Source: Chrysoperla carnea (taxonomy: Eukaryota > Arthropoda > Insecta > Neuroptera > Chrysopidae). Taken from it: a DNA stretch of 64,000 nucleotides. Position 1 is the first letter of the stretch; each line of letters opens with the position of its first letter. The position numbers and the translations under genes were made by a program. Positions 874-63,468 of this stretch are shown here, piece by piece. The stretch spans positions 133,755,960 through 133,819,959 of the forward strand of contig NC_058337.1 in NCBI RefSeq assembly GCF_905475395.1. The letters run 5' to 3'. The notes under the pieces were generated by a model. The model did not search any database. It was given only the letters and a program-made list of their open reading frames with translations, and was not told where the DNA came from.

Positions 874-2739
874 TAAGATTGACATTTCACAAAAATAATA
901 TTACCAGAACTACGTTTTCCATAAAGAATGTGCGTCTTACTGTATCTTAAAAAATAAATTTCTTGTCATTTTGCTTCGACCCAAGGTCTTGGAAACATAA
1001 CAAATAAGATGATTTTATATAGAAGTGTTTGGATGTTTTCTATAATCACGTAATATTTTTTCCCATGTTTGTATATTACATGATCAACGTTTTACAAAAT
1101 GTTATGTCAAGTTTGACCTATTATATGCCAAGAATAAGTTACTCCCATGTGAGTTTTACCAAAGTTATCTAAAGTCTTTATATAATAATAATCATTCACT
1201 GTATATAAGCTCTTATATAATAGTTCGTTCTCTCGTTTAGCTCACCGTAATTCTTCAAAGACACATACATAGTCGTCAAATTCTATTTCATATTTTTACC
1301 AGTAAGTGTGTTATTTGGTATAGCTAGTTATTAAATGTAGTTTTTATAAAAATAGATTAAATAAATATGAAAAAACTAAATGAGGACACTGTAACGTGTT
1401 TTTATCTATTTATTGTAAGCTTTAGAATATTCGTGGGCTTATTAGTCCTAGCAAGTTAGGAATAAAAATTCGTAAAACTCTGAAACGAGCTGTTTCTCAA
1501 GTGTTCTTAAATACAGGCAATTATTTTAAATATTCTGATTTCGAGTCATAAAAGCACATTTTTCTTTTAAAATATTAAAATTAAAAATGGTAATTTTTAA
1601 ACTGTATATCACGTGATCTAAAACGCGGGTAAGCCCTGCTGTGATGTCATAGCGGTATGAGTCATAGACCATCAGTTAGTTCAGTGTAGACAGCTGAGTA
1701 TAATATATACATATAGATAATAAGTATTTATATTTATTATAATCAGATGTCTATGAATATATCTGTCAAAATTATTTGTGTTATTTCGTATATAGTGATA
1801 CCCAAATTACGTCATCAAATTGGATACCCGCGTTTTTGACAGTTTAAAGAAGGTTTAAAATTTAATTTAAGTTTTTGGCAAGAAAGCGTGTGTATTTTTT
1901 CGAAATTAATTTTTGGTGGCTTTTTATTAGCAAAATCAACATTTTGAAGTACTTTTTCAAAAATAGTGGAATACCCTATTGTTATCCTGTCATCTTACAA
2001 TAAAATACCACAAAAACGGGTATTCATCAATTTTAATCCCCTCTGGCGCTTGAAAATAATTTCACCTTAGAAAATATATTAAAGTGAAAACTGAAAAATA
2101 AATTTTATATGAAAAATAATCATAATAATATAGGTAATAATTTAAGACTATTTATAAGAACACCGTGTTTTTTTATGAGTTTGTTTTTTACGATATAGAA
2201 TTATAATTTTTTTATAATTTGAGAGTAATAAAAAAAAGTTTGTTTTTTATTAAGAATGATAAATATTTTAAGTATTATAACTGAAACTAAGTAACGTTGT
2301 TGTATTAAATGATTTTATGTTTATTTGAATTAAATAGAGTACCTATCCACATAATTCATGTACAGCAAAACTTGGTTTTAGCGAAAACTGCATAAGTGCG
2401 AATTAGTATCGCAAGTGTGAATGATTCGCACTATTTTTACGTATTTTCTTGAAGTTTTGACTCACTTATTTCAATAACTATTAAAACAATCAAGATAAAA
2501 GTCATCAAAGATTTATTTATATCTCTTTCTAGCAAAACAGAATTTAACGTGGAGATCTTATAACATACGTAGTATATGTCGTCAACTATTATGTCCGATC
2601 TCTCTGTCTAATATCCGTCTAATAAGTAGTTTAAATGATTATATCATCCATATTTCCTGTCCGATTTAAATTTATCTACACTTTATTGTCTTCTCCTTTG
2701 ATTAAGTACATCTTAATTTTTTGTATTTATAATAAAAAC
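874..2739. other. Gene-free AT-rich stretch
   Basis: I see no gene, RNA gene or clear repeat boundary here. The sequence is A/T-rich with frequent stops in all frames. Only short simple-sequence patches stand out. Confidence 0.6.
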
Positions 2740-3275
2740 AATTGAAAACAAACAGTTGACTGAGTTAATTGTTGAAATACCATGCATAGACAGTGTTGAT
2801 TACTTTATCACATAACACATACATACATGTCACACATACATAACTGATATCCCCCAAATAATACAAACTATATACAATTTACGCCCTCACGAGTAAACAG
2901 TGATGCTTACGAAAAAATGTTTCAAACAAAAGTTGGTTATTTTTTTATAAGGAATATTTTTTATATTTAAACTTTTGCTCTATCTCTAATGGTTTTCATG
3001 ATGGGTCCTACGGACCCAAGACCCAATTGACCTATGTTGCTCATTACTCTCACTTTTTATGCCTGAGTACGCAGTAAAAATTTCAGCTTGATATCTTTTT
3101 TCGTTTTTGAGTTATCGTGTTGACAGACAGATGCACAGACGGACAGACTGTACAGACGGACAGGCAGGCAGACGGACAGACAACCGAAAATGGACTAATT
3201 AGGTGATTTTATGAACACTTTTATCAAAATGTTATTCATAGCATCAATATTTTTAAGCGTTACAAATCTTAACGT
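2740..3275 (-). repeat. Dispersed repeat family S, copy 1 (truncated)
   Basis: Inverted relative to the copies at 28646 and 34061. It starts at 'gaaaacaaacagttgactga', runs through 'cgtttttgagttatcgtg' and 'gactaattaggtgatttta', and fades near 'aagcgttacaaatctt'. The middle is expanded into a GACA/GACGGACAG-type microsatellite (3121-3182). It lacks the 'ataccatgtatat' terminus of full copies. It is non-coding and its class is unknown. Confidence 0.75.
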
Positions 3276-6299: not shown

Positions 6300-6476
6300 T
6301 ATATGCCCGGTAATAGTATATGAGCCTGTAGTGTAATGAAGTATAATTTTTATCTAATACTGTACCAACGGGAGGCTTCACACACACAATACTCAGTGTG
6401 TGATCACTTGTTTACAATACTCTACTATAGTTAATAAATTTCGATTTTTGCCCCAATTCCTAGATCAGTTTTTTGT

Positions 6477-6527
6477 ATTTTTAAAATACGTATTTTCGAC
6501 TACCAAGTAGTCATCATCAGTAAGAAT
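6477..6527 (-). ncRNA. Hammerhead-ribozyme-like motif, left arm of copy 1
   Basis: Complement of the right-arm motif. Core CTGATGA is followed by one extra T, a perfect 6-bp stem II with a 3-nt loop, GAA, and a self-complementary stem III (AATAC/GTATT). A closing stem I pairs the 7 nt before the core with the 7 nt after the predicted cleavage site. It is read on the minus strand. Confidence 0.6.
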
Positions 6528-6719
6528 TAGCTAGTGAATGTTACTCTTTGTTAATTTGGTGGCGGACTGCACACTGTTACTTTCGTGTTTTTACAATTTA
6601 TTAATTATATTAATTTATTTGCATTTGACAGATACTGTGAACAGTATAAATTGTAAAAACACGAAAGTAACAGTGTGCAGTCCACCACTAAATTAACAAA
6701 GAGTAACATTCACTAGCTA

Positions 6720-6770
6720 ATTCTTACTGATGATGACTACTTGGTAGTCGAAAATACGTATTTTAAAAAT
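6720..6770 (+). ncRNA. Hammerhead-ribozyme-like motif, right arm of copy 1
   Basis: Stem I 5' strand is 6720-6726 (ATTCTTA). Core CTGATGA is 6727-6733, with an unpaired T at 6734. Stem II is GACTAC/GTAGTC with loop TTG, then GAA at 6750-6752. Stem III is AATAC/GTATT with no loop (6753-6762). H17 is T6763 with predicted cleavage after it, and stem I 3' strand is TAAAAAT (6764-6770), giving six pairs and one C-A mismatch. A loopless palindromic stem III is like the short-stem-III class that acts as dimers. The extra T after the core is the main deviation. Confidence 0.65.
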
Positions 6771-7353
6771 ACAAAAAACTGATCTAGGAATTGGGGCAAA
6801 AATCGAAATTTATTTCGACATATCCTAGAGTTCTCATTTATTATCTTCGATAATATTTATATCTACTATAGTTGCTTCTGTTACACCCATAATATTCAAC
6901 TATAAATGTGTGATTATTTTTAATTTATTTAATTTTTTATTTCGCAATTATCTCTTCTGTATGGTAAAAATCAATTATATGGTTATCATCTCCACGTTAA
7001 AACGGTGGTAAATCTCCTTCAAATTGTGCATCTTATTACTTATTTTCCAGGTTTTGTAAATTCCTAAATATATTACAATCGCGGGACAACAACCTTTATG
7101 TGCAGTTCCAAGACTTGGGAAGACAAACCACTGCACCAACAGTCAACATATGTTACCTCCAAACCATCAGACGGTTAGGATTTTAACATAAAAATGAATG
7201 TCAGCTCCTTAACTATAATAACAATGAAGTTGTGATGAAAACGCTATACAAAAGTAATATTAAAAAAAAACCAGTGGCGAAGTAATTAAAACACATATTT
7301 TTGGAATGTATGATGATCGTTATTATTGCAACGTTTTATATTTTATTTTTATA

Positions 7354-7848: not shown

Positions 7849-9293
7849 TGACCTGCTATAGTAAATGAATATGTCCTTGTGATTTTAAGTACAATATTTT
7901 TTTTTTAATAAATAAATAAAATGTACACAGTTTAATTAAAAAAATATTTATAATTGTTTTTAATTAAATTCGCCACCCACATCATCATATGCACAAAGTA
8001 ATTAAATTATTACACAATTAAAATTGCATAATATTTGCCGGTCATAATACGTCAAGGAACAAATTTTTATATTCAAATATTTATTTAAAATGGAACCTTA
8101 GACAGATTTTATGTTTTGAAAAAACTTTTTGGGCATGTAAATAAAAAAAAAATTGTTAAAGTAGTCCGGTTGTTGTGTAGTCAACTAGGCAATTTGTATG
8201 GCGTAAATCTAAATTTATAAGAATGGAAGGTGACTGATCGATCAACGCACAGCTGAAACCGCTGGGTCTAGAAGCCTGAAATTTTGTACACACGTTCCAT
8301 AAGTCACGTAATTTTTGGAAATCCATGTCCTAAGGGGCTCAAAAGGGAATGTGAATTTTGTATATGCAAACTGCAAAAAAAAATTTGAAAAAATCGAGAA
8401 AAACGCAAAAAAAATTGTATTGTAGAATTTGATGAAACTCGGTGGATGAGGTAATTTTGACCCAAAAAGTATAAAAATTAGGTTAATTTACTGTTTGGAT
8501 GCAGATTTTCTGAGATACCGCAATTTTTGGATCGATTTTAGTCCGTATCTCAAAAATTATTAGACCAGTCATCAAATGCACACGATTTTTGTACTTTTTG
8601 GGTCAAAATTACCTTATATACTGAGTTTTATCGAAATCGAAGATAAAAAAAATTTCTCGATTTTTTGCAATTTTTTTAAGGGACACCCCTTTGAAAAAGT
8701 CGAGAAAATCGAAAAAAAATAATTTTACTTCGGAATTAGCAAAAAAAAATGTTGTATCGTCTCATATTGATTATTTTGTGACGTTAACTATCCTTCATCA
8801 CTGTCACCATAAACGGTACCTCAGTTGTTAAAATCAGTTCAGGTTTTTGGATAAAACTACTTTTTTCACCTAGGTAGCTCGAAATAAATAAAATTTATGA
8901 ATGAGAATTAAGTATACTGACTGCCACTGTACACTGCAAATACTTTCTTTTTAAGTCTGATGTATTTTGTAATAATCTTGAAGTAAATATTTAATAAATT
9001 ATTAAAAAACAATTATTATTAATTAATAAATACTTGTAGTACCTATATATACTTATCATACGACTGACTGACAAAGGTGATTAAATGTGTTACAAAAATA
9101 GTTAAATAAATAATTAAATGATAAAATTAGTTATGAGAAATTAAAAAAATGAAAACAGGAAAATTATATTGTAAAAAAGAAGCAAAATTACAAAACTCAA
9201 AATTGATTAAAAAAAGATTCAAATATTTATATAAAAATATCTCTTAAGATACGATAAAATGGGGGATTTTCTGTAATAAAATAGAGGAAAACC
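7849..9293. other. Gene-free stretch with an imperfect inverted repeat and a MITE fragment
   Basis: At 8155-8220 'ttaaagtagtccggttgt' and 'ctaggcaatttgtatggcg' match the TTAA-type MITE in the sugar-transporter intron (38213-38402). At 8430-8480 and 8590-8640 'ggtaattttgacccaaaaag' recurs inverted as 'ctttttgggtcaaaattacc', forming an imperfect hairpin of about 210 bp. Nothing else is recognisable. Confidence 0.55.
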
Positions 9294-10144
9294 CAGTGAT
9301 GCATTTAGGCCTAGGCCCGAGACGTCCGGGCCCTAGGGCGGCAGAATTTGATGGGCGGCAAAATTTATGAAATGCCAAAATTTTAGAGTCACAAAAAAGT
9401 AAAGACAATCAATTATAAAAATTGGTTCAGAATAGTTTTTATAAAAAATTTTCGATAGAAAATATTATAATCCAATTCATTAATTTACTTCTAAATGTGT
9501 GTGGATAAGATGTTAATTTTTTAATCGATCAATAATATTCTTTATCGAGTAATGTTCTATACTTTCTGTTCCTTTAGTGAGATTAATCTCACGTGTATGA
9601 AGCATTTTGAAATTATTTAATCCAAATGACTTCTTAATTTGTTTTTAATTTGTTTTTAGTGTGAAATAAAAATACCGAAGATTTGTATGTCCCATGATGC
9701 ATGCTACGCATTAGAAAATGAGTGGCCTGCAATAAGAGTGGTAGACAATGAATGCATTCATTTACATTGTCAACTCAAAGATTCCTTGGCAAATATGGAA
9801 GATGTACGCTATGCACAAAAAATATGCAATGTATTGCATTCACGGAATCTTCAAGATGTTTATCCGAATGTGGACATTGCTCTCCGTATTTTTTTGAGTA
9901 TTCCGGTTACAAATTGTTCAGGAGAAAGATCTTTTTCTACTCTTAAAAGGGTAAAAACCTATTTACGAGCAAGCATGGGCCAAGATAGACTTAATGCACC
10001 TGCATTACTGTCTATTGAAGCCCAACTAGTCCAAGAAATTAATTACGACGACATAATTGATGTTTTTGCACGGACCAAAGCCAGGAAAAAGAAATTTTCA
10101 AATTGATTAATATTAAAAGAAATATGAATTATTTATCTGTCTAA

Positions 10145-12500: not shown

Positions 12501-12795
12501 CGCCCTATTAGCTCAGTTGGTTAAGGCGTTACCAATTCTGTCCGCGGTATGCTTAGTGTAGCGGGTTCGATTCCCGCCGCGGCCGTTGCAACAGAATTAA
12601 TTTAATTAATAGTTGTGATTTGCTGGCGTAGTGCATGGTATATGCATGAAGGAGGTGCACTCAGTCTCTGAAATTGAGGAACTAATAAATGAAATTATCA
12701 GCGGAAAGGTGGTAAAACACAATGGGCTTTATATAAGTTTGTCCTTTGTGGACAGCCAATATTACCAAACCTAACCTAACCTAACCTAACCTAAG
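12501..12795 (+). mobile_element. tRNA-derived SINE, full-length copy
   Basis: The 5' 85 bp are tRNA-like: box A 'tagctcagttggttaagg' and box B 'gggttcgattcccgc'. A non-tRNA body follows (to 'gtggacagccaatatt') and then a tail of CCTAA units (about 12769-12793). CTAAGT occurs on both sides, a possible short target duplication. The body is shared with the copy at 26513-27163, which argues against a working tRNA gene. Confidence 0.85.
12770..12794. repeat. CCTAA tandem tail of the SINE
   Basis: About five CCTAA units, complementary to TTAGG, the common insect telomere repeat. The position at the 3' end of a retroposed element makes this a SINE tail rather than an internal telomere. Confidence 0.85.
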
Positions 12796-13124
12796 TCTAC
12801 CCAAATTTTTGGCTTCTTCTCAAATAATTAAAAAAAAATTACGCCAGCTTTATGTATATTTGTACACATAGATTATCAGTCTCATTATCAAATTTTTTAT
12901 TTTTTGTTCTTATTCAAATATTTATATCCTATTTTTGTATATAATTGAGTGAAAACCAACAATATAATTATAAAACACTCATCCATTTTTAAATTCACGT
13001 GATTCGTCGTGATTTAAAATATAAACATTTTTAAAATTAACAAGTGTGAATTGGATGCTATCATTAAAGATTCTTTATAATAATTGTTCGATATAAGACT
13101 TCAAAAAGTTTTGGATTATATACA

Positions 13125-13500
13125 AGGTAAAAGTATATGACCTTGTAATGAAATGTGGTACAATTTTTTTCTAATACTGTTCCAACGTAGGCTTCACATA
13201 CAATACCCCGTGTGTGATTTGTTGTTTACAATATTTCTGCTGTAGTTGTTTCTGTTACAGCCACAATATTCTACTATAATTTTCTTGTACATATAATTAT
13301 TTCTGCGTTCCTTCCACTAAAAAGTATCGTCTAAATATGTGATTATTTTATCATTGAATATCAGTTTTTCGTAAGAATGGTGATATTTCTACTAAACTCA
13401 TGCTGTACGTGTAAAAATGTCAATTTTAATCACAATTATCTCATAAACGGTATGGTAATTCTCCCTCAAATTTTTACTTATTTTCCAAATTTTGTAAAAT
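13125..13500 (+). repeat. Dispersed repeat D1, uninterrupted copy (empty site)
   Basis: Aligns with both flanks of 6300-7075. At 13255-13270 it reads 'tctgctgtagttgtttctg' exactly where copy 1 carries the ribozyme element between two TCTACTATAGTT copies. Confidence 0.75.
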
Positions 13501-19325: not shown

Positions 19326-19475
19326 TCAAATTTTTCGATTGCTCAAAACTTTATTCCTTCGTTTCTTCGTCTAGTATAAAGTAAACTTATTTCCAAACAC
19401 AAACAAAATTAATTTTTGTTTTAGTTAAATGCTTGCAATAGGCTTTGTTAATTCAAATATGCTAATCAAAGTATA

Positions 19476-19771
19476 TACCACTAGTTGGATTGACATCTAG
19501 GCATATAAATATCACGAGTATGACAGAATACATGCATTAAGCAATGTATCTAAGTGAGAGGTATTATATACATGTGTTGACCTCCACTCTCTGCAGGTAC
19601 ACAACAGAAGAACAATTGTATAGCTTAAAAGACGTCAAAGCTACGATACAAGTCACTTTTGCAATTTCATGTAAAATCTATAATACCTCTTACTTAGATG
19701 CATTGCTGAACACATGTACTCTGTCATACTCGTGATATTTATATGCCTAGATGTTAATCGAACTAGTGGTA
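19476..19771. mobile_element. Inverted-repeat MITE with TA target
   Basis: About 60-bp inverted ends begin TACCACTAGTT and contain 'catctaggcatataaatat' on the left and its complement on the right. TA flanks both sides, pointing to a Tc1/mariner-type origin. The central 170 bp is non-coding. Confidence 0.75.
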
Positions 19772-19774
19772 TAT

Positions 19775-23489: not shown

Positions 23490-23745
23490 TTACCTTATTT
23501 TCAACTTTGATGATGAATTTTGTTATAACCTCATGAATGTAGACGAAAAATAAGAATAAAATTTTTCGATATGTGTCTTGGTTTTCGAAATATCGAAAGC
23601 TAAATAGTTAAACAAAATTTTCAATTTTCGATATTTTGAAAATTAAGCCAGATATCGAAAAATTTTATTCTTACTTTTCGTCTTATTTCGCCAAGTAATA
23701 ATATAAATTTATCATCAAAATTGAAAATATCTATTTTTAAATTTG
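23490..23745. repeat. Imperfect inverted repeat
   Basis: 'gacgaaaaataagaataaaa' followed by 'tttttcgatat' near 23545 is mirrored as 'aaaaattttattcttacttt' near 23660, and the outer 'caactttgatgatgaatttt' as 'aaatttatcatcaaaattga'. It forms a hairpin of about 250 bp and could be an old foldback element. Confidence 0.6.
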
Positions 23746-27177: not shown

Positions 27178-28645
27178 CTTGCCTAGTGGATTAACTTATT
27201 CAATTTTCCTTGGCAAAAATGAAAACTTTTAAAGATATAGTTAAAACTTGCATGACAAGTCCTGACTAACCCATAATTATAAATGTTAACGCCGTGTTTG
27301 CCCAGTTTAAACAATATAATTAATAAGTATTTATTTATTTATTAAAATATTTTTATTGATACTTTATAAGCAAAACATATTTGTTTTATTTATTTAAAAA
27401 AAATATATATATCAAAAATTCAAGGACAATTTTAACTGTAAAATGTAAACAAATAATTACTAAAGCAAACAGAAAATGTACATAAAATATCTATTATTTT
27501 GTTTACATTCTAACAAACTATTAATTGATGTTTAATTTTACGAAGAAAACTGGGAGAAAATATTAATTTTCCACCTTTCCTTTTTTCTTTAATAAAAAAA
27601 ATAGATTCTATTATGGGATTATAATTCTATATAGATAATAAATTGATTTTTGAACTTTTGGCGTCATAAAAACCGAAAAAAATTGATTTCACTCTACCAG
27701 GCGCAAATTTTATCCAATTTTGATCAATCAAGTATATAATCCCAATAATTTTGGGTCATACTTTTCAAATATTTGGCCAAATTTAACGTATCTTCAATAA
27801 ATTTCGAAAATGCAGTATCATTGTTCTCACATTTGGTATAAGGGCTAATATAATATTAACGAATAACTGTCATAAAAAAGGAAAAATATGACCCAAAATT
27901 ATAGGGAATCAAAAAAAATTTCATTCAAATACGATAAAATTTGGCCAAAATATTTAAAAAGTATAACTTTTATAAGCAAACATTTTTAAGAAAATCTTTG
28001 CAGCAAATCATAAATTTGTGAAGATCCCAAACTGAAGAATAAGACGTTATTGCGAAACTGAATATATAAACTAATTTCGTCCAAAATTAGTGCACGTTTA
28101 GCAAAAATTCCGGGATCAAAAACCTTTTACGACCTTTCAGGTTTAAGGTCAAACATTTTCTGGCCTTTTGAAGTCAAAACCTTGATTGTTTTTCTTGTGT
28201 TTCTAGTAATCCCATTTCTATTTTTCCAAAGGTCTAGTGACGCCACTGTATAAAATTGAAGGTCGTTCAAAATGTTCCACTTTTACACAAAAAAAAAAAT
28301 TAAATACAGCTAATGTATAAATTTACTTAAATTATTTAAAAATATTCCATTAAGTTAATTTTTACCTAATTATACGCAAAACGTTTTGTAAATATTATTG
28401 AAAAAAACATTTTTTTAAACAAATTTTATTAGAAATTAAATAAATTTTTATTAATTAATCATTTATACCTGTTACATAATTTTGATATTTTACAGTAGAG
28501 TCTCGATAATCCGATTACTGGGATTATAGCGAAACATTCATTATAAATACAATAAAGCATTGGAAAACAGCATTGGAATGTATGTATTTAAACTAGACTG
28601 TACACACAGCATAAAACACGTGCTATTGTGATGTTATTGTGTTTT
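27178..28645. repeat. Gene-free stretch containing repeat R3, second copy
   Basis: At 27645-27985 the R3 blocks recur: 'tccaattttgatcaatcaag', 'ttttgggtcatacttttcaa' and, inverted, 'atatgacccaaaattatagg'. The rest is A/T-rich without a gene. Confidence 0.55.
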
Positions 28646-29196
28646 TATATCATGGATATATGTAATATGCAAGGTATACTAAGTTTAGTCCCAAGTTTGT
28701 AACGCTTAAAAATATTGATGCTATGAACAAAATTTTGGTATAGGTGTTCATAAAATCACCTAATTAGTCCATTTTCGACTGTCTGCCAACACGATAACTC
28801 ATAAAAGAAAAAAGATATCAAGCTGAAATTTTTACAGCGTACTCAGAACGTAAAAAGTGAGGTCAAGCTCGTAAATGAGCAACATAGGTCAATTGGGTCT
28901 TGACCTATGAGTCCGTAAGACCCATCCTGTAAACCGTTAGAGATAGAACAAAAATTTAAATGTAAAAAATCTTCCTTATCAAAAAATAAACAACTTTTAT
29001 TTGAAACAGTTTTTCGTAAACATCATTGTTTACCCGTGAGGGCGCAAATTAGGCGTAATTTGTATAGTATGTAATTATGGGATTATCAGTTATGTATTTG
29101 TGACATGTATGTATGTGTAATGTGACAGAGTCATCAACACTGTCTATGCATGGTATTTCAACAATTGACTCAGTCAATTGTTTGTTTTCACTTGTT
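28646..29196 (+). repeat. Dispersed repeat family S, near full copy
   Basis: Runs from the 'atatcatggatatatg' end through 'agtcccaagtttgtaacgct', 'cacctaattagtccatttt', 'gataactcataaaagaaaaa', 'aaaccgttagagatagaac', 'catcattgtttacccgtgag' and 'gtatttcaacaattgactca', to 'gttttcacttgttt'. The two ends each carry a short palindromic motif. It has no coding capacity. Confidence 0.8.
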
Positions 29197-29329
29197 TGAA
29201 TCATAACAATGAATCATATTACATGTATATACAAAGAAACACTATCATTAATGAGAGATCAAAAGAGAGCGGCGTGGATAGTTATAGACTCTACTGTATT
29301 TATTTTTATTTTTGACACGTGCAAAGGTA

Positions 29330-29620: not shown

Positions 29621-30101
29621 AGGTAAAATGTAATAAAAAACTGCATTTTAAATCTCAAAAAGTACATTTTAAATCTCAAATCTGAAAGAAATAAATTGTT
29701 TTTTAATCTGTGTAATAAGGAAATGTACACGAAAAATAAATTATTACTACATTATTGATAACACAAAGATTTGTTTTATACAGGGTGGACCGTTTTAATC
29801 TACCGAGTGAAACAAAATAAACTGTCAATATTCAAGGACCATCTTCAGCACTACAGGCCTCAGAGATTTGTACATTTCATCGCAGAATAGTCCTCAAAAA
29901 GATAATCACTTCTTACGTTATTTTTCATAATGATTTTCTAAAGAAAATAAGTTCAAATCTCATAGTTTGAAAGAAAATTTGAGGAAGTCTAGGATAGAAG
30001 AGATAAAAGAGTGAATCAAAAAAACATTTTGAAACAATTCGGAGACACATTAATCAGAAATTTTGGATATTGTTTCGTGTTTATTCCCAATTCTTGAAGA
30101 A

Positions 30102-30585
30102 AACAAGTGAAAACAAACAATTGACTGAGTTAATTGTTGAGATATCATGTATAGAAAGTGTTGATTAATCTGCCACATTACACATACATACATGTCACAC
30201 ATTTGCGCCCTCGCGGGTAATCAGTGATGTTTACGAAAAATGTTTCAAACAAAAGTTGTTTATTTTTTTATAAGGAATATTTTTTACATTAAAACTTTTG
30301 TTCTATCTCTAACGGTTTAACCTATGTAGCTCATTTACGAACCTAAGCACGCTCGACCTCACTTTTTACTTCCTAAACACGCTGTAAAAATTTCAGCTAG
30401 ATTTCCCTTTTCGTTTTTGAGTAATCGTCACAGACGACAGGCAGACAGCAGCCGGAAAAGGACTAATTAGGTGATTTTATGAACACCAATATCAAAATTT
30501 TATTCAAAGTATCAATATTTTTAAGCGTTACAAACTTGGGACTAAACTTAGTATACCTTGGTATATTTCACATATACATGGTATA
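30102..30585 (-). repeat. Dispersed repeat family S, copy
   Basis: Starts 'aacaagtgaaaacaaacaat' and ends 'catatacatggtata'. It is the reverse orientation of the copy at 28646, with an internal deletion around 30190-30200. Confidence 0.8.
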
Positions 30586-31313
30586 ATAATCGATAACAAT
30601 TATTGAATAAAATTAGTAAATTTGGAAAATTCCATAAAATTAAATTTTGAAACTCTACACCCGTCTAGAACAAGTATTTTCTACAATATTCGAATCACCT
30701 CTATACAAAAAAAAAAATTTTATTTATAAATGATAAACCAAAACCGTATTATTATCACTTTTAACACATTAAAAAAAAAACGTAATAATTGATAACAAAT
30801 ATTTAATTTGCCCCCACTTTTTTCAATACACATTCAACAAAATATTTAAAATTCATGTTCGAGCGAGTAAAAAAAATATACCGGCATTTAATAAAGTTTT
30901 TTATAACGAAGAAGAAAGAGACATTTTCAACTAGTTTATAATAAACAACATAAATGTAATCATATTATTCATAAATTCATTAAAATATCACGCGCGAAGT
31001 GAACATTATCGTAAATGATATGCGTTAAACGTGCGAGTACATTTAACATACTTTTTTTTTAATTTAATTCAATTTAAAAAAATAATACAAACTAAACGCA
31101 TTTTTATTTAAATGTATTTGTTTATTTATTTATTTTATTTAATTAATTTAATTTGAATTAAATTCGAAACAAAATAACAAAACATTTAAATGGATGTTTA
31201 TTGTCATCGTGTTTTATTAGAAACAAAATCTTTTTCTTTGTGATCTCTGTTTTGTAAAGTGTGTTTTTTTTTATTGTGATTTTGGTTTTACTTTGTTCTT
31301 CATCGAAATCATC
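30586..31313. other. AT-rich stretch upstream of the sugar transporter
   Basis: Low-complexity A/T sequence with no repeat boundary. It probably contains the promoter and 5'UTR of the transporter, but I cannot assign a TATA box or start site with confidence. Confidence 0.4.
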
Positions 31314-31324: not shown

Positions 31325-34300
31325 GTAAGTAAATATCGTTACTTTTTCTTTGTGTTTAAGTTAAATATGATGTTTTGTATTGTGTTAAATCGTCGGCACT
31401 TCCATCCAAAAAATACTTTGAACCTATTCCGATAATTCTCAATCACGTTTACTTAGAAAAATAACCATTTAACGATTATTTCCTTTTGTTACGACAAATG
31501 GATCATTACACCATTTACACAATCGATAAAAAATGCAAATAGTGTCAGGATTTTCACATATTTTTAGGACAGACGGGACAGGCAATTAAGCAAAAGTTTA
31601 TGTATCAGAACACAGTCTCGGCTCGTTTTCTGGCAGTCTATTAAGTTGACGAAAAAAAAAAATTTATTGAATTGGTAGCTCACAATTGAAGTGAATAGTT
31701 TTTGAATTTTTGTAACTGGTTTTTGTTGAGTTAAAGGTAAGTTAGGTAATAAAAAAAATTGAAGGTTTTTCCTTTTCATGGATTTATAGAAAATAAATTT
31801 ATACCGATTCCCTTGTTTTTGAGGACGTCTAGGAAAATTTATTGAAAACAATTTTTAAAAATATTTATTTCAATAAGTTTGTTATTGTTGAAAGAATTGT
31901 AAAATGGTTTTTTTTTTCAAGTGCTTCCCATTTTTCAGCACTTTCGACTCTTGCGAACTTGGAAATTTTTTTTACATATTTTATTGTCCTGACTTTTTTT
32001 TTAATGTACACGGTAGACAAAAAAAAATCGATGAAAAACTCGAATTTCATACATTCGATATTCGGTTCACTAATTAAAACCTAAATTTTTTTATTAACTT
32101 ACTTTTAAACTTCAAAAGGTAGACAAAAGAAAACCCAGAGTTTCCACTTAATGATATATGCTCATCCGCATATATTTTCCTTAAAAAATGCCAATCTAGA
32201 AATGACTGTTTGACTTAATTTTAAGTAGAACTTTCTATTTCCCACGAAATCGCGTTCCTTAGGATCATCTTTAAATCGTGTATTATGAATGTCGTGTATT
32301 ATGAAGAAGGTAAATTTTGTAATACTCCTTTACGATGCTAAATTTATAGATTTGAGCTGTTAAAGCTTACCCCCCTTACAGTGCTAAATTTATAGATTTG
32401 GGATATTGTTGAAGTTTCCGTTCAGCTGTTAAAAGGCTAATTTTCTTAAGAAAAATTCTGACTGTGCTAAATTTATAAATTTGAGCTTTCAATTTATAGA
32501 TTTTCGATGTTATTAACGAGAGATATTTTTGTTTCTCGAAGAACCATCGCCAGGGATAGCATCAACAGTTAGACGCTCCTATTTTATTTATTTGCCTTTT
32601 TGTCTGCTTACGACATGAATTTGTTTTGCAATTTTTTTTTTAAACAATGTCTAAATATAAATGCAGTCTGCTTTGATAAAATTCTGTGTTATCTATGCAC
32701 AAAAGATAAAAATTGTTATATTTCCGTTTGTTTACTTAACCACTAACATACAAAAATGTAATTGTAAACAAACGTAAATTCGACCTAATCTTTCATACTA
32801 TTAGCATTATATTTATGTAATAAACTTTGCCTATATATCAAAGGTGAAAAATCAAACATCTAAAAAAGGTTAGAGATTGATTTTGTCTAAACGAAAATTT
32901 AAACATTTTCAACGCACTGCGAAAATCAGCAATAATCAGAATATGTAATTATGAAAATTAGAGGAAATCTAAGAATTGGGTGTCTATATTTTTTGAATAT
33001 TTAGAGGGAATAAGACCAAGTATAGCCGAATATCTCTCCAAAATACAATATTGTAGATGTGTCGGATTTTTTGGATATATTAGATTACAGAAAATACTCG
33101 ATCTTTACTTCAAATTAACTAGATTTTCGTATTTTTTGGGCCAAAATTACAAAAATTGGAAATTTTATCAAATTTCGAACAAAAAATTGTTTTCGATAAA
33201 ACTTAATACTTTCATACTCCAAAATTCTATACTAATTTTTCGGTACGATTTCAGGAAAAATGTTTAATAATCAAATGAACTGATATTCAAACTGATGAAA
33301 TTTTATGGATCTCTTTTAGATGCATTTCATTAATTGTCGAATAACCTTTATCGTCACTTGTTTGAATATGAAAGGTCTAAATGAAAAATTTCCATAAAAA
33401 ATGATTGAGTATTCAGATGAATTAAAATTTAATGGAAAATAATTAATTTATTTAACATGTGAGTCACATGTTTTAACAAACCTGCTCTATACTATACAAA
33501 TAATAATTTATGACTTTTTATTTAAAAAACAACTACACAATTTATTCATTACATATTTCTATTTGTCTATTTATCACATAATTGGTAAATTTGAATTCAT
33601 TAAAATCTGAATAAATATTTGCATATAACATGTAAATAAATTAGACAATTATAAAGTGTTTAGACAAAAATTAGCATCAACATCAAATAATTTAGCAAAG
33701 TGTTCTTTCAGATCAAAGTCTTTCTTTCATCTTAATCGCACGATTTCAATGAAAATTAGATATAAAGGCTATTTCTGTCATATTCTCGGCCAGCCTATTT
33801 TTTTAATCTTAGTGGTTAGATTAGGTTAGGTTAGGTTATCTTGGCAGCGGGAATCGAACCCGCTACGCTATGCATACCGTGGACGGAATTCGTTACGCTT
33901 TAACCAACTGAGCTAATAGGGCGATAATCTTAGAGATGAACTTCAGAGATCTCTTTCAGACTGACACCTATCATTAAGTCGTAGGTAAGTGGTGAAGTTT
34001 CATGATAGATATGGTCAAAAAAACAAAAAATTATCTATATATTGGGCTTAAAACGTTTTTATACCATGTATATATGAAATATACATAGTATATTAAGTTT
34101 AGTCCCAAGTTTGTAACGCTTAAAAATAATGATGCTAGGAAAAAAATTTTGTCATAGATGTTCATAAAATCACCTAATTAGTCCATTTCCGGTTGTCCGT
34201 CCGTCCGTCTGGTGACACGATAACTCAAAAACGAAAAAAGATATCGAACTGAAATTTCAGCGTACTCAGGACGTAAAAAGTAAGGTCAAGTTCGTAAATG

Positions 34301-37300
34301 AGCAACATAGGTCAATTGGGTCTTGGGTCTGTAGGACCCATCTTGTAAACCGTTAGAGATAGAACAAAAGTTTAAATGTAAAAAATGTTACTTATCAAAA
34401 ATTAAACAACTTTTGTTTGAAACATTTTTTCATAAACATCACTGTTTACCCGTGAGGGCGCCAATTAGGCGGAAATTTTATAATATGTACTATACTTGAT
34501 TATCAGTTATGTATGTGTTACATGTTTGTATGTGTAATGTGATAAAGAAATCAACACTGACTATGCATGGTATTTCAACAATTAACTCAGTCAATTGTTT
34601 GTTTTCACTTGTTAAATTGTAGCCTGAGATGCCAAAAGTGAGAAAATATACTTGGCTGACAAAAATGTGCTCAACTTATTGATTGAGGAAATTTTTAAAA
34701 ATAATAAAATCCGACCCTTTGAGCCAGAGGTTGAAATGCTGATTATTTACGTGTACAAAGCTCTTCAGGAATCTTCGGAAAATAAGTTCATCTATTAGCC
34801 AAGGATTACCTTACGCTTAGAATATCGGTCAGATATCGACAGGTGATTAATATAGTTGTGAAATATCTGTTGTTCCGTCTTAATGATGTCCTCTGTATTA
34901 GTAGAACATCAATAAAAACTACCACATTTGCCTATTAAACTTATTATTTAAATTTATGATATTTTTTCGTTCTAATTTATTTGTCTAGCGAGTTTTTTCC
35001 TAAGCGGAACATTTTTAATCCGTGAGTATATTTTTCGTCAAAACTAGACATGATAAGTTTGGAAATGACGGATGAATCATGGAATTTGATAAAGGAATAA
35101 GAAAATAAGAGTAGGACAGAAAAAAAACATAAGATAACTAATTATTATTTGTCATCTTTTAGAATAATAACTGATTATTTGTCATCTATTAGAAATTATG
35201 TTGAATAATTTATTATTATAAACAATTTTTTATTAGTATTATACTTGTTGACATTTAAAATGTATTTAAAAACCATGTGATTTTACTTTTACAAAAAAAA
35301 AACGTGATTACAAGTTTATTTACCTTATAATATCTTTCTACATAAAATTTTCTTTTTCTTGCTGTGCTAATTTTTATACCCTGCATTGGTTGTGTGCCAA
35401 AATTTGCAATAAATCACACGTTTTATTTTAAGTATGACTATTTTTCAATTGTTTACATGTAATTGGTTAATTTTCAATTGGTTAAACTTATACTGAGGAT
35501 AAATTTTTATAGCGTCTTCAGGGCGTAACAACTGAATTTGAGTTCTAAAACGAACAATACCGGCCAATTGGGTCTTGGATTCATTATGGACCCAACCCTC
35601 TCGTAGGATTAGTCCTTTGGGCTGCCCATATGACTCATCCTGTAAACCGTAAGAGACAGAAGGTGACAGAACAATCCATAAAAAAAATTGTAAAAGATAG
35701 AGATTGAAAATTCGTAAGGAGCTTCAAATAGCGGGACTATCGGCCCTAAGTTCATGTTAAACACATTCGATAATATTAAGGGGATTATTTTTGGGGGAAA
35801 AATTTTGTTTGTTTATTAAAAATTCTCTTTTAAAGCATGTAGATTCCAAAAAACAGAAAAAATTTTGAGCAAAGAAGATAGCATAAAGAAAACTATTCAG
35901 AATTATATTGTTTCTATGGAAACAAATAATTCATCTCTTTCGCAGACAAGTCAAATTATGAATAATTTTTTTAAAATTATCTTTTAATTTTAATATAATC
36001 ATTTATTTTACTAATTAATTTTAATTATTTCCATGAAATCAAATAATCAAAGCCAAACTGTAATTGTATTGGAGTGAGTTTTATATTTTACTTTATCATT
36101 AGTAGAGACTGACTTCCAATATCGGGTACTTCGAGTTCAGCCTAAATTCCTGTGGGAACTTACAAAAGACTTTTTTCTTTACTTTGTGTGGCCTACCTCT
36201 TCTGAAGTAAAGGAAGTTTATTCCCACCCGTTAACTAATTTAAGGAAATTGCCCCATTTGGGCAAAGTCAATACATATATTGTCGTTTTTTTAGTGTTCG
36301 TTATTCATCTTGGTGCCCCCCTTATGGTTCCCGTTCCTACATAATTTACCTTTTTTTCTTTTTTTTTTAGTCTTCGTAAATGCACTTTGGGCCCTCCTTG
36401 TGGTGCCCTTCCCTACAAATTTGCTTTTTCTCCCCCTCTTTTTTTTAGTCTTCGTAAATTCACTTCGAGTGACCAGTGGGAAACTGCTCCTTTGCCACCA
36501 CTGCTTTCACCAGTTTTTTGAGAGTTATAAATTTTGTACCTACGTGTAAATATGGTCGAATTAAATTTGAAAATAGTAGTTTAGAAAATTAAAAAACATA
36601 TAGGTTGGAATTATTAATACATTTTTGTTGTTACAGAGATCCAACGCAACCATGCATGATACCAAAAAAGAAAAGTTACGTCAATTTAGAAAATCCAGAT
36701 GCAAAACCAATACGGGGCTCGTCATTTCGTCAAGTGATAGCAGCATTTATTGCAAATCTTGGCACAGTTAATACTGGTTTAGTTTTTGGATTTTCAGCTG
36801 TAGCTATACCACAACTTGAAGCTAAAGACAGTATAATTCCAATTGATGAATATCAAGCTAGTTGGATTGGTAAGTTTTGCCCCCAAAATCTGATTATATT
36901 CAAAGGTATTGAAAATTTCTAATAATAACTTTTTTTTCACAGCAAGTTTAAGTTCAGTTACGACACCAATTGGATGTATATTGAGTGGATATTTGATGGA
37001 TAATTTTGGACGTAAACCTACATTAATTTTAACTGAAATTCCATTAATTTTAGGATGGTTTTTAATATCGATTGCTCAAGATATTACAATGATTTATATA
37101 GGTACGATTCTCCTTATTATTTATAAATTATTATATTTGTTATTACTTTTCTCACGCACGTACAAAGTACACACAAATCCTTTTTTTTAATTATACAGAC
37201 TCATAAAATTCAATATTTGTAAATATTCCTGTAAATATTAGTTTTACAGAAAAAAATGATCAGTTTCCTAATATTAAAAGAAACCTTTCAAGTTTTATTT

Positions 37301-42535: not shown

Positions 42536-42656
42536 TGTTTAAACCGACAACTATAGTCATGATCAACTTTAAACTTACCGCCAAGAGCCGTTAATGCCAT
42601 CTCTCGACGATCAGTAGAACTATCAAGCTAGAACCGGGCACGAACTTTCTTAGACC

Positions 42657-45051
42657 AAGATCCCGGTGCCCCCAGACGTTACTTATTTTCTCATAAGAAA
42701 TATAAATGGGATAAAGTAGTGTTAGTACGTACTTTGAGTGTGTGCATACCTGCTACCTTGGGTCGACGGCCAATTCATAGGTACCAGGTGCTAAAGGTAG
42801 ATAAATACAGTACTGATTTTTCTCAAATTCTCAGTGCTGATTTTTACATATGTTTTAGATATTTTTGTTAAAAATCAATAATCATTATTGCCAGACACTT
42901 TCCATCGGCGCTTACCCTTACCAGACGCTTTAAAGCTTCAAAAAAAAAAAACATATTCTTACTTATATTCTCACTCTTGATTTTTATATATGATACTAAG
43001 GGAACTATTTGAACACTCCTGGTCAGCAGCCAGACCAATTGGAGGGGTCAAACATCCCCCCAGACACACATAAAGTGTTGCTAAAATTCTGCTCTGTTCG
43101 ATGTAATCAAGAGAGATTAAAGATTCGTTACATGCAAAATGGAATCGAACCTGAAGATTACAAGGTATTTTAAAATGATCTGGGTTGAGAAAATTCTATG
43201 AATAATAAATATAAGTTTCTTTAACCTATGTTTTACATCTTATCATCGAGTAAAATTGAATACTACTATTTAAAAAATTCATGTTTATTAAATCTTAAAA
43301 TTATAAAAAGCTATACATGTCATTTTACAATTCAGCGTGATCTTTACTGTCATCATCGTCTAAGTTTGATAAGTCATCATCAACCCAATGTTGGCAAGTT
43401 CTTCGTCTCCTCGTCTTCGAATTTAAAGGTGGTCTCATTGTTAACAGCGGGTAAACTTATCAATTGGGATTCATCTGGATTATCTAAATCAATATTTTGA
43501 TAGATGATCCCGACAGTATCGTGCAATGTATCTTTGCCACTGTTAGTTTCCACAAACCTATCAAAATTATCAAAAGCAACCCCAGTACAGAGATGTGGTG
43601 ATTTTACAATTGCTTCAGGACATATACTTGACTGCTGTATTGAAGTATATGTTGCTTCGGTTTCCAGCTCTTCTACAGCTGGATAACTAATGCAATGACC
43701 GTACCTATGAATTACATCAATAATTTTGCGACTACTTGTTAAACTTTTCAAGGACATTCCGAGCACAATATGTTTCGACGTTTTGACTTGTCCGTTATAA
43801 ACACCATACACGACATCTTCACAGTAAGATTTGACTTGACGAATACATTTTGGATTATTTTTGCGCTTTCGATTGCTACCGGCTATCAGAGTGTAATAAA
43901 AGTCTAATAAATCTTGTGGTATCGATATTTCACCTTCTTTAAGGTTTTGTGCGGTTATAAGTTGTGGCAATTTTTTTTTCAGTTTGCAAAATAGATTTTC
44001 GCAATAATAAAGCAGCTTTGTGTAACATATCTTCATCCTTCAAATACTCAAATGATTGGTCATCAATAGAAATTAAATTTTTCGGAGCTACTAATTTTTT
44101 ATTCTGAATGATAAAAAATTTAATTTGCTTATCAAATGCTTTTATTATCTTGATTTCTAAATTGTGTGGAGTGAAACTTCCTTTAATTTTTGTATAATTC
44201 CCTTCTTCACTTTCATTTAATATTTCCATGTAATATCTATGAAGATAAGTCAAAAAATAGCATCGTCCTTTTTTTTTTTATATTTTCATTAATTAAAGCA
44301 GATATTTCCTCAAAAGCAGTTTGATGATGCTGACGAACATCATGCCAATCACTTTTGGGTGTTTCTTTTTTTACTGATGTTTTATAAAAAAACTCTAATT
44401 TGCAAGGATGATGATAATAAATTTTTGAAAGCGAATAATTTTCAAATTTATTAATTAACTCCTTATGCTTTTCATTTTCTTCATCTAGTTTAGAATCACA
44501 GATGCACTGAATCGAGTAGCACGGAATAGAGTAGCCTAGAGACGACAATAATAAAGAAAGATATCCATAAATAGATATCTCTCTCACACTCAAGCGTACA
44601 AATAATGCCCTCGCGCTTATACACATAGCGACACTTTATGTGTGTCTGGGGGGATGTTTGACCCCTCCAATTGGTCTGGCTGCTGACCAGGGGTTATCAA
44701 ATAGTTCCCTTAGTATCATATATAAAAATCAAGAGTGAGATTATAAGTAAGAATATGTTTTTTTTTTTGAAGCTTTAAAGCGTCTGGTAAGGGTAAGCGC
44801 CGATGGAAAGTGTCTGGCAATAATGATTATTGATTTTTAACAAAAATATCTAAAACATATGTAAAAATCAGCACTGAGAATTTGAGAAAAATCAGTACTG
44901 TATTTATCTACCTTTAGCACCTGGTACCTATGAATTGGCCGTCGACCCAAGGTAGCAGGTATGCACACACTCAAAGTACGTACTAACACTACTTTATCCC
45001 ATTTATATTTCTTATGAGAAAATAAGTAACGTCTGGGGGCACCGGGATCTT
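42657..45051. mobile_element. Transposon with 425-bp terminal inverted repeats
   Basis: The left arm (42657-43082) and right arm (44627-45051) are nearly identical inverted copies. Both start AAGATCCCGGTGCCCCCAG at the outer edge and reach 'ataaagtgt' inside. The 1.5-kb centre contains one minus-strand gene, broken into three frames. I could not find a convincing target duplication, so the superfamily is open. It sits within a region that ends in a Helitron 3' terminus at 45153, suggesting nesting. Confidence 0.85.
43380..44626 (-). pseudogene. Frameshifted transposon-borne gene of unknown family
   Basis: Three overlapping frames on the minus strand, 44237-44626, 43939-44253 and 43380-44036, read as one protein of roughly 400 residues with two frameshifts. 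The shifts lie near the A/T homopolymers at 44269-44280 and 43971-43980. The C-terminal 218 residues are well kept. They contain a basic KRKNNPKCIRQ patch, SCEDVVYGVYNG-like text (CEDVVYGVYNGQVKTSKHI) and CTGVAFDNFDRFVETNSGKD. I have the impression that this last motif belongs to uncharacterised proteins found in many arthropods, but I cannot name a domain or confirm catalytic residues. The position inside long inverted repeats marks it as the element's own gene, possibly its transposase or an accessory protein. Confidence 0.65.
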
Positions 45052-45153
45052 ACTCTATCTGGGCTTTCTTTTGAAAATGGATCTTAAAATATTATTTATA
45101 CCATTAAACATCCGATGTATTTTAACCCGAGCAACACCGGGTTTGGCTGCTAG
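45052..45153 (+). mobile_element. Helitron-like 3' end downstream of the long-TIR element
   Basis: 'aacccgagcaacaccgggtt' forms a hairpin (AACCCG...CGGGTT), followed by 'tggctgCTAG' (45150-45153) and T. This fits a Helitron 3' terminus. Its 5' part would lie left of 42657 and would include the heat-shock-element array, but I could not place the 5' TC end. Confidence 0.55.
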
Positions 45154-50751: not shown

Positions 50752-53700
50752 CTAATAGTCCTGAGATTGTGAAGATTTTTTGCCTGCACCTCCAGAGGAT
50801 GTCGATGTCTTTTTAGGTAGAAGTACTGCTTGTATATTGGGAAGAACACCACCTTGGGCGATTGTCACACCAGAAAGTAATTTGTTTAATTCTTCGTCAT
50901 TTCTGATGGCTAGTTGTAAATGTCTTGGAATAATTCTGAAATTAAAACAAAATCGCTTATCAAGACAAAATTCTTTCAAAAAACTGAAATCTGAAAGTTT
51001 TACATAGATTTCTTTAGTTTTTTTACCCTAAACCCAATGAAATTTTAATATTTACAAGCCAGTGTTTTACCAAAAGGAAATTCTCTGACTTTCCCATGTT
51101 TTACAGTTGAATAATTCAAAAATCCCAGACCACCAAATTAGTACTTTTAAATTGCTTTGAAAGAAAGTGGAACGAAAATTTTACAAACAACGAGCATGAA
51201 AACTTACGATCACTTGCGCATCACAATTTTTTTTAATTAACTTGAATAGAAAAATAAAACTATAAAAATACTTTTAGAAGTTTATTACGAAAATGATAAA
51301 ATTCCACGACTTTGCCCTTTTTTCACGGTATCATCTGAAATTTCCAGGTTTTCTAGAAGTTTCTCTTGAAACGCGCCATTACCAACCAGGGTGATGATCT
51401 CATTAATATGAAATCCCCTAAATTTTCCATGATTAGGCTCGAGTACGATAAATGTTGCGCCACGATTTGACAAAAGAATATTGTCAGACACACATAAATA
51501 AAGCGAAAATGAAGAATACCAATTTTCGAGTTTTGGCTTAGTTCTCGAGATAATGAAGTCTAAAAAATGAAATTTTTATGTCATTAAATTCGCCATTTTT
51601 GTAATTTAATTCATAATCATTGTGCTAACACGACCCCATTAAAGGTATGGCCAACCTGTAGATCAGTGAATGAATTCAATCACAGGGTAAACGCAAGGGC
51701 TAAAAACTCGCAGGCCTGTGCTAACACGACCCCATTAAAGGCATGGCCAATCTGTAGATCAGTGAAGAAAAAAAATTAACTAACGAATTTGTTCGACGAA
51801 ATTGTAATACATATTTCAATTTAAAATCAACTAATGTGTAATTTTGTAATTTTTAAATCAACTAAAGTGGGTAGTGTAGTGTTATAATTGAAAATCGATA
51901 ATATTAGTTCAAAATCGACATATTAAAAAAAATTATAGGTATGTTTTTCAGAATTCTTTCAAAGTATTAGCTTTAAATTTTAGTATCCATAGGAACTTGT
52001 CAAATTTAAACGATTCAACATACAAAAAATGGCCATATGTGTTATTTCAAATGTAGACTTTAGAGGTCGATTACTTGAAAACTGATCCGAAACTCGAAAA
52101 TTAGCACTCTTCATTTTCGATTTGTTTTACTTTGTTTAACCATATTCCATTGTCAAATCGTTGCGCCACAGTTATCGTTCTCTCCCCAAACAAAATAAGT
52201 GGATTGAAATTGTATATTACATATACTAGTGTGATCAAATAAAAAAAAAATGGCGTCAATTTTTAGATAATTCTGAGTTCGGAGAAAAAAATTGAATTTA
52301 GTAGATCATTATGATAAAAATTGAGGAAACTAAAATCTAACATTTTTTGATGGTCGGAAGGGGTCCAAAAAAAATGGTAAAGTGGCCTAATCCGGTCTTT
52401 CGCGTCAGACACCGTCGGATTGAGTTAAAAATAAAAAAGTGTTTAATAAGCTTACGCGCCGTAAAAAGGCGAAAAGAATGAGCTGAGAATGAACCCGATT
52501 GGTCCATCGATGTCCCCACAAATTGCAAAAAACCATCGATTTTGCTCGAAATTTCAAAACTTCATAGCTCTTGTTGTTTTAAAGATTCAAAGCTGAGATT
52601 TAAATGGATTGTAGCTTTTGTACCCATGAAGTATCACACACAATTTCAGCAAGATCGAATGTATACTTTTTGCAAACCGCAGCTGAATGCAAAAGACAGG
52701 ACTTTTGTAAAATGGCCCTAAAAAAGTTGTGGTGCGGTAACGCGCTATTTTTTTACGCGAGCATATGCTTCAATAGTTAAAGTAATACCTACTAAAGTGC
52801 CAACCTCTCATCTTAAGTAAAAGTTACTAAAATATTAATTTTATATTACTATTATTTTAAATTATAACATTAAAAATAGGATGGGGGTAATGGGAGCAAT
52901 TATTAAGACTATAATGTCACATAACTTCTGTCTCTTAATAATTGCTCACATTACTCCCATCCTATTTTTAATGTTATAATTTAAAATAATAGTAATTTAA
53001 AATTAATATTTTAGTAACTTTTACTAAAGATGAGAGGTTGGCACTTTAGTAGGTATTACTTTAACTATTGAAGCATATGCTCGCGTAAAAAAAATAGCGC
53101 GTTACCGCACCACAACTTTTTTAGGGCCATTTTACAAAAGTCCTGTCTTTTGCATTCAGCTGCGGTTTGCAAAAAGTATACATTCGATCTTGCTGAAATT
53201 GTGTGTGATACTTCATGGGTACAAAAGCTACAATCCATTTAAATCTCAGCTTTGAATCTTTAAAACAACAAGAGCTATGAAGTTTTGAAATTTCGAGCAA
53301 AATCGATGGTTTTTTGCAATTTGTGGGGACATCGATGGACCAATCGGGTTCATTCTCAGCTCATTCTTTTCGCCTTTTTACGGCGCGTAAGCTTATTAAA
53401 CACTTTTTTATTTTTAACTCAATCCGACGGTGTCTGACGCGAAAGACCGGATTAGGCCACTTTACCATTTTTTTTGGACCCCTTCCGACCATCAAAAAAT
53501 GTTAGATTTTAGTTTCTTCAATTTGTATCATAATGATCTACTAAATTCAATTTTTTTCTCCGAACTCAGAATTAAATTATTCAAAAAGTTAATTTGATCA
53601 CACTATACCTACAGGGATTGAATTTCCATACTTTTTAGATTTGTATAGCTTCGAAAATTTTGAAAATTGATATAAAAATGAAAATTATTTATTTTCTTGC

Positions 53701-63100: not shown

Positions 63101-63468
63101 GATTAATTAGGTGATTCTATGAACACCTATACCAAAATTTTTTTCGTAGCATCAATATTTTTAAGCGTTACAAACTTGGGACGAAACTTAATATACTATG
63201 TATATTTCATAGATACATGGTATAAAAAAAACTAACTTTTAATAAGCAAAGGGCAAGGATTTCCAAAACATTGTTGCATTCCAATTATTCCAGCAATTGC
63301 TCCATGGATGATAGATACAAGTCTACATGACCATTCTGGAGATTTGCTTGGTAAACAACTTCGTAAAATGCAGTATAATGTTTGCCATAAACTAATACTA
63401 AACAACACTAGTAATATATTAATTTTTAAACCAAATGGAATTACAATTGTTTCAACGATTTCAAGCAT
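60159..63468 (-). CDS. TLCD5-like: TLC domain-containing protein 5 (TMEM136-like)
   Basis: Multi-pass membrane protein of the TLC (TRAM/LAG1/CLN8) family, TLCD5/TMEM136 branch; its biochemical role is not established. Exons 63237-63468, 61647-61914 and 60159-60384 (726 nt, 241 residues) have GT/AG borders and consistent phases. Family marks are SPEWSCRLVSIIHGAIAG in exon 1, GYFIHDLLWCLVYKTES and LMLCHHIFSLSALIRLF (the paired histidines of TLC proteins), then GGAEITNPLLQLRWFLRYAG in exon 2. Several hydrophobic helices follow in exon 3, and the tail is HNPPEHMAQVDS. Hydrophobic segments fit six or so membrane passes. Intron 1 holds a family S copy ending about 10 bp from the donor; intron 2 holds a Helitron B. 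A minus-strand AATAAA is at 60079-60084. Confidence 0.92.
60617..61079 (-). mobile_element. Helitron family B, complete copy in a TLCD5-like intron
   Basis: Minus-strand element starting TCTTATATATATAGGAGAC and ending with a hairpin region and CTAG, between A60616 and T61080. It is very close to 24206-24663. A (TA)n run borders it on both sides. Confidence 0.85.
61080..61646 (-). other. Intron 2 of the TLCD5-like gene, remaining part
   Basis: Non-coding; a moderately GC-richer patch at 61120-61220 and no recognised element. Confidence 0.5.
61915..62645 (-). other. Intron 1 of the TLCD5-like gene, remaining part
   Basis: Non-coding; nothing recognised apart from a C/G-richer patch near 62380-62450. 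Confidence 0.5.
62646..63226 (-). repeat. Dispersed repeat family S, full copy in a TLCD5-like intron
   Basis: From 'aacaagtgaaaaaaaaac' to 'atagatacatggtata', the reverse orientation of 34061-34613 and well conserved ('gggtcctacggacccaagac', 'gattaattaggtgattctat'). Its outer edge lies about 10 bp from the intron 1 donor at 63236-63231. Confidence 0.8.

Follow-up and report, generated by a model that had tools for sequence, protein, structure and literature searches.

Penelope-like elements (PLEs) are the closest described counterparts of the two insertions analysed in this paper. According to those sections of the Adineta vaga study on which we draw (PMC3846280), PLE copies in this species carry inverted pseudo-LTRs (pLTRs), mostly placed head to head, and one of the two pLTRs optionally bears a 31-bp tail. 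Target duplications of 8 to 10 bp accompany the A. vaga copies, except for some inverted-pLTR copies and one subfamily, which have none (PMC3846280). Since palindromes recur at the inverted junctions, the authors of that study proposed that the inverted copies arise by self-priming. The main text of the same paper contains no mention of hammerheads.

The second system is the anole PLE (Poseidon PAc, from Anolis carolinensis). As the relevant parts of its description have it (PMC11167929), the PLE protein cuts and extends both strands of its targets, which are AT-rich, and an optional tail of 30-40 bp corresponds to the stretch between two adjacent start sites of reverse transcription. These start sites show no difference between the two strands. 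The ORF begins directly behind G8 in the hammerhead; from this start, the cut is 26 bp downstream. Cleavage by the ribozyme was obtained only with the protein added; mutants of the hammerhead left insertion in vitro unchanged, and the cut coincided with neither the start nor the end of any read (all from the same parts of PMC11167929). The route by which PLEs produce inverted copies is debated, with the A. vaga study favouring self-priming and later work on the anole enzyme showing that both strands are cut and extended (PMC3846280 and PMC11167929, in the parts concerned).

Three further observations from the literature bear on the motif that we describe. In the pertinent part of a hammerhead review, PLE hammerheads are characterised as minimal, usually lacking helix III and tertiary contacts (PMC6155905). 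Short non-autonomous Penelope elements are mentioned for butterflies in a passage of another paper (PMC6685494). Finally, the account of the plus-strand hammerhead of CChMVd, a viroid, reports in the portion used here that a natural extra A between A9 and G10.1 lowers the rate moderately, and that changing this A to U raised trans-cleavage 3-4-fold (PMC3705267).

With these systems we compare two insertions found in a window of 64,000 nucleotides from Chrysoperla carnea (contig NC_058337.1, positions 133,755,960 to 133,819,959, forward strand). The window is the whole stretch of DNA that was analysed, and all positions below are counted from its first letter.

A 429-bp insertion and its second copy

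The first element, which we call e1, occupies positions 6433-6861 (429 bp) and consists of two pseudo-LTR copies placed head to head. Its left arm (6433-6601, 169 nt) has its sense on the minus strand and its right arm (6646-6814, 169 nt) has its sense on the plus strand, with a central loop of 44 nt between them (6602-6645). The arms are 99% complementary, differing at 2 of 169 positions, which confirms the facing arms of about 160 bp that an earlier note on this DNA had described. A palindrome, ATACTGTGAACAGTAT, spans the right edge of the loop (6632-6647). Adjoining the right arm is a tail of 47 nt (6815-6861, plus strand), made up of a 7-bp hairpin followed by TTTATA at the end; the left arm has no counterpart to these nucleotides.

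The whole of e1 is flanked by a 12-bp target-site duplication, TCTACTATAGTT, present on the plus strand at 6421-6432 and again at 6862-6873, just as the earlier note had claimed. The chance of a 12-bp match at the exact ends of e1, calculated from base composition, is about 3e-7. The target itself lies in a member of a dispersed repeat, and another, diverged member of this repeat is found on the plus strand at 13103-13279, where a single copy of the target (TCTGCTGTAGTT, 13236-13247) stands without an insert. When the flanks of e1 are joined and aligned to this paralogous empty site, the two agree at 81% over 180 aligned positions (E 3e-42). Because a diverged paralogue of the target exists without the insert, we conclude that e1 is a true mobile insertion.

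Two other repeats of the window may be recorded here. One is a dispersed repeat family, about 500 bp in length, whose five longer copies (2725-3266, 28632-29206, 30100-30598, 34055-34613 and 62635-63228) share 70-86% identity over alignments of at least 400 bp. The other is a short ACCTA array at 12764-12794, which we take to be the arthropod telomere repeat TTAGG read on the other strand. Together with the intron-bearing genes of the window, this array points to an arthropod host.

The second copy, e2, lies 51 kb from e1, at 57949-58308 (360 bp), and has the same layout, including the head-to-head order. Its left arm (57949-58097, minus strand) lacks a tail, and its right pseudo-LTR copy (58106-58262, plus strand) is followed by a tail of 46 nt (58263-58308, plus strand) that shows one difference from the tail of e1 and likewise combines a small hairpin with a terminal TTTATA. 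The two pseudo-LTR copies of e2 have unequal truncation points and are joined through a filler of 8 nt, AAATAAAG (58098-58105, limits set by eye from the alignment). The target-site duplication, AGAAAAATATTG, found on the plus strand at 57937-57948 and 58309-58320, measures 12 bp, or 15 bp if a shared ATA is counted. The targets of the two elements are unrelated, and each element has its own, different duplication. Within the window we find no empty site for e2, whose flanks match nothing else there at E up to 0.01.

The ends of the two elements can be compared directly: the left ends are 1 nt apart and the right ends are identical. Both left ends map inside another small hairpin, which in the right arm immediately precedes the tail. 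Between the right arms of e1 (6800-6822) and e2 (58247-58270), this hairpin differs at two bases, and in each case pairing is preserved or gained.

The arms also carry information about the history of each pair. The two arms of e2 differ from each other at 3 of 141 aligned positions and by a 2-nt gap. Common to both arms of e2, and absent from both arms of e1, are an insertion of 15/17 nt, an added A and one substitution (in this comparison the left arm of e2 was taken as 57949-58091, 6 nt short). Since such variants are private to one element and yet present in both of its arms, each pair derives from one type of template. Judging from these variants, the inverted pairs of e1 and e2 were probably formed separately, each of them anew. 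Of the 124 columns compared, four are variable, and none of these falls in the 79-nt block that all four arms share, a number too small for a claim of constraint.

It is also conceivable that the elements belong to a non-autonomous family in which the inverted unit is itself copied ready-made; in favour of this, the layout of the two copies is the same and their ends nearly so. The centres of e1 and e2 differ, however, and variants shared by the two arms of one copy and absent from the other copy would require conversion from arm to arm, so that we consider this explanation unlikely. For the inverted dimer inferred in the earlier note, too, the private variants suggest separate formation rather than spread as a ready-made unit.

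The surroundings of e2 deserve a brief description. The element sits in intron 1 (57588-58510) of a gene for an RNA-binding protein, presumably RBM7-like. Exon 1 (57495-57587) codes for MENEDTKSRTIWCGNLSNRVNDEIIYELFLQ and is followed by GTAATT, and exon 2, from 58511, continues the RRM.

Long inverted repeats are also the hallmark of a foldback or MITE-like DNA transposon, in which case the likeness to a hammerhead described below would be accidental. Other palindromic stretches do occur in the window, for example at 52268-53574, 23496-23729, 19473-19774 and 8377-8677. In e1 and e2, however, the terminal inverted repeats do not reach both ends: they stop short of the right end, and a tail of 47 or 46 nt stands on the right side only. 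Moreover, the longest direct repeat within at most 15 nt of the ends of the four palindromes measures 8 bp and does not coincide with the ends, whereas e1 and e2 have repeats of 12 and 15 bp, respectively. We therefore regard a transposon of this kind as very unlikely.

The largest of the four stretches, 52268-53574, is a near-perfect palindrome of 1,307 bp that matches its reverse complement at 97.7% identity. Direct repeats of at least 5 bp are absent within 15 nt of the two ends, and the window contains no second copy of this palindrome. A further inverted pair, of about 432 bp and 98% identical, is found at 42651-45057 around minus-strand frames of 219, 112 and 132 aa. These frames have no Pfam match, and the whole is perhaps a transposon with long terminal repeats.

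The hammerhead-like motif and the hairpin around it

Each of the four arms contains a hammerhead-like motif. In the right arm of e1 the motif extends over 6720-6770 on the plus strand. Its core boxes are CTGATGA (6727-6733, with C3 at 6727) and GAA (6750-6752); stem II pairs 6735-6740 with 6744-6749 (6 bp, closed by a 3-nt loop); stem III is the palindromic, loopless AATACGTATT (6753-6762); T6763 stands at the H17 position, with the cut predicted after it; and stem I forms 6 of its 7 pairs. One unpaired residue, T6734, separates A9 from the start of stem II. The motif thus has the parts of a minimal PLE-type hammerhead, namely the core CUGANGA...GAA, stems I and II, and H17, with one extra U after A9. 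The left arm of e1 holds the identical motif of 51 nt, with 7-nt stem I strands, on the minus strand (6477-6527, C3 at 6520), and an identical motif is found in both arms of e2 (57995-58045, C3 at 58038, and 58166-58216, C3 at 58173). All the hammerhead parts that the earlier note had listed on both strands are indeed present; what it missed is the unpaired U after A9.

In order to express how unusual this arrangement is, we use a motif descriptor that allows either 0 or 1 nt after A9. The descriptor matches at four places in the 64-kb window, which are the arms of e1 and e2, and all four carry the extra nucleotide. In 300 dinucleotide shuffles it has 0 matches, a result that argues against the accidental likeness implied by a foldback origin. 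Because the four arms are homologous, the four matches count as one motif, that is, as one independent event.

No Rfam hammerhead model matched, whether in the whole window at gathering scores or, with E up to 10, in stretches of 701 and 90 bases, in searches run without a PLE hammerhead as positive control. The lack of a covariance-model hit is one of the outcomes that the earlier note had named as counting against its reading. The extra U10 might be one reason why the motif escapes the standard hammerhead models. Neither the exact 27-mer of the motif nor a gapped pattern with 23 fixed bases occurs in contigs of viruses and prokaryotes, where the motif would not be expected, and the literature searched yielded no mention of sequence words taken from the element.

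Below the cut-offs, the Rfam scores on the element belong mostly to hairpins of microRNA type, together with a few other chance scores. Some of the microRNA models score on the arms with E down to 2.6e-17, which raises the question of whether the unit is a hairpin-RNA or microRNA locus. Such a locus seems to us extremely improbable: all 25 listed scores lie below the family cut-offs, with none at gathering, the scores mostly reward the long hairpin, and the unit is mobile and flanked by target duplications.

Computed folding sets the hammerhead fold against its competitors. For a single motif, the hammerhead fold has an energy of +1.4 kcal/mol, compared with -6.5 for the best fold; for a dimer of the motif, the corresponding values are -13.1 and -26.7 kcal/mol. 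For the whole e1 RNA, the computed fold is a hairpin with an energy of about -282 kcal/mol. Whichever strand is transcribed, the motif's complement would be made first, so that the hairpin should win over the ribozyme fold; the earlier note had spoken of a competition between the two. With the antisense arm transcribed first, a long RNA hairpin would form, and the inverted copies are therefore probably silent as ribozymes; they may serve as input to a small-RNA pathway.

Coding capacity and the formation of the inverted pairs

Together, A9, the extra U and G10.1 spell an AUG (6733-6735 in e1, plus strand), whose frame is interrupted by an in-frame TAG at codon 5. Further on, the frame in e1 is shifted relative to that in e2, and between the AUG and the end of the tail each of the three frames is short and broken. 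The TAG at codon 5 implies that the e1 and e2 copies are non-coding. Since both are short (429 and 360 bp) and their frames from the AUG are broken, neither is an autonomous PLE, and neither contains an ORF with a telomerase-like reverse transcriptase and a GIY-YIG endonuclease. A Pfam search of all 35 stop-to-stop frames of at least 85 aa in the window likewise found no reverse transcriptase and no GIY-YIG endonuclease.

We also considered a coding reading of arm plus tail. In e2, no stop interrupts the frame in the 38 codons after the TAG; since stretches of this kind lack a stop in about 8% of cases in the window, we set the reading aside as weak. As a separate observation, the window contains a fragment of a hAT transposase, from its dimerisation region, at 9660-10103 (Pfam E 1.2e-12).

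How, then, might the inverted pairs have arisen? We think it likely that e1 and e2 are ORF-less, PLE-derived insertions, each composed of two 5'-truncated pLTR copies joined head to head, that they were made by two-ended priming from opposite ends of the target, and that the hairpin probably silences the motif. From the observed anatomy, the insertion of e1 and its second copy, we infer a course of events in which a PLE protein, acting in trans, would cut the two target strands at points about 12 nt from each other. The 3' ends freed in this way would each prime reverse transcription on a pLTR RNA. One cDNA would begin at an inner start site, leaving no tail, and the other at an outer site 46-47 nt downstream, yielding the tail. 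Both cDNAs would reach a length of some 150-260 nt, ending upstream of the hammerhead, before being joined at their 5'-derived ends, with gap filling producing the target duplication. In the parent element, the hammerhead would have the role of trimming tandem transcripts, probably as a dimer or with help from the protein, and the extra U10 would create an AUG about where the ORF starts in one characterised PLE. Two-ended priming would account jointly for the single tail, the head-to-head order, the variants shared between arms and the short duplication.

Self-priming, the route proposed for the A. vaga copies, shares the PLE origin and differs in how the pair is made: the end of a cDNA would fold back and copy itself, giving a hairpin with a central loop. 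The palindrome at the edge of the e1 loop recalls those that recur at the A. vaga junctions, and a pair copied from itself would also share private variants between its arms, as the arms within each element do. A simple fold-back, however, should put a tail at both ends, whereas both left arms stop without one, within 1 nt of each other; and the junction of e2 is an 8-nt filler rather than a clean loop. Self-priming therefore appears rather unlikely to us, and we rate two-ended priming above it, a rating made on two copies only. The junctions of these copies fit both routes, and that of e2 could also stem from a deletion in the centre of an older inverted element.

Returning to two-ended priming, we note a consequence. 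As the start sites of the anole element are alike on both strands, copies with two tails, or with none, should also exist; neither is known among the two elements of the window. It is possible, and we put this forward tentatively, that two-ended target-primed reverse transcription, with one cDNA from each start site, makes hairpin-forming, ORF-less, one-tailed insertions as a regular product of PLEs. If two-ended priming is the correct reading, a self-cleaving retroelement becomes, through its inverted copies, a source of double-stranded RNA with its ribozyme shut off. Very short insertions such as e1 and e2 display both ends, the tail and the central junction together, and many of them could decide between the two routes.

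Comparison with described elements

Several features relate e1 and e2 to known families of small, ribozyme-bearing units. Like animal retrozymes, they are small, non-coding and low in GC, and they contain hammerhead or hammerhead-like motifs; the duplications of retrozymes, if present, exceed 4 bp, as the part of the retrozyme paper considered here states (PMC7229834). The retrozymes described there, however, consist of direct tandem repeats with canonical type I motifs, whereas in e1 and e2 the paired repeats are inverted and the motif is minimal (PMC7229834). We accordingly rejected an animal retrozyme as an identification: the units are inverted, and 0 of the 29 tandem-repeat entries for the window overlap e1 or e2.

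The motif itself resembles the CChMVd plus-strand hammerhead, as presented in the portion cited above, in having an unpaired extra residue between A9 and G10.1. The extra residue is an A in CChMVd, where the hammerhead belongs to a viroid and has loop-loop contacts, and a U in e1 and e2, and the likeness implies no relationship (PMC3705267).

A further comparison, made by description only, can be drawn with the anole PLE, as set out in the same parts of its description as before (PMC11167929). In both cases a hammerhead lies in the pLTR region, with a start codon just after G8. The predicted cut falls 30 nt downstream of the AUG in e1 and e2, against 26 in the anole element, and the outer end lies 129/130 nt into the AUG frame, against a start site at 111-118. 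The two systems differ in that the anole PLE has a full ORF, whereas e1 and e2 meet a stop at codon 5, and the tails of 47 and 46 nt are somewhat longer than the published PLE tail of 30-40 nt (PMC11167929). Because mutants of the anole hammerhead left insertion in vitro unchanged, the ribozyme may not matter for mobility.

The earlier note's proposal of a mobile, non-autonomous element of Penelope type is supported by the one-sided tail, the inverted head-to-head pseudo-LTRs, the short duplications (12 bp for e1 and 12-15 bp for e2), the second copy and the paralogous empty site of e1. The inverted-pLTR copies of A. vaga, for example Pen2a_Av, share with e1 and e2, in the sections concerned, the inverted pLTRs, the tail on one side, the short duplication and the head-to-head order (PMC3846280). 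The tail measures 31 bp in A. vaga, compared with 46-47 nt here, and the A. vaga copies shown there hold remains of the ORF or captured DNA between or beside their pLTRs, whereas in e1 and e2 pLTR stands against pLTR with no ORF (PMC3846280). In our view e1 and e2 represent a real mobile element, most likely derived from a PLE and built in a way that has already been described, in an unusually small form.
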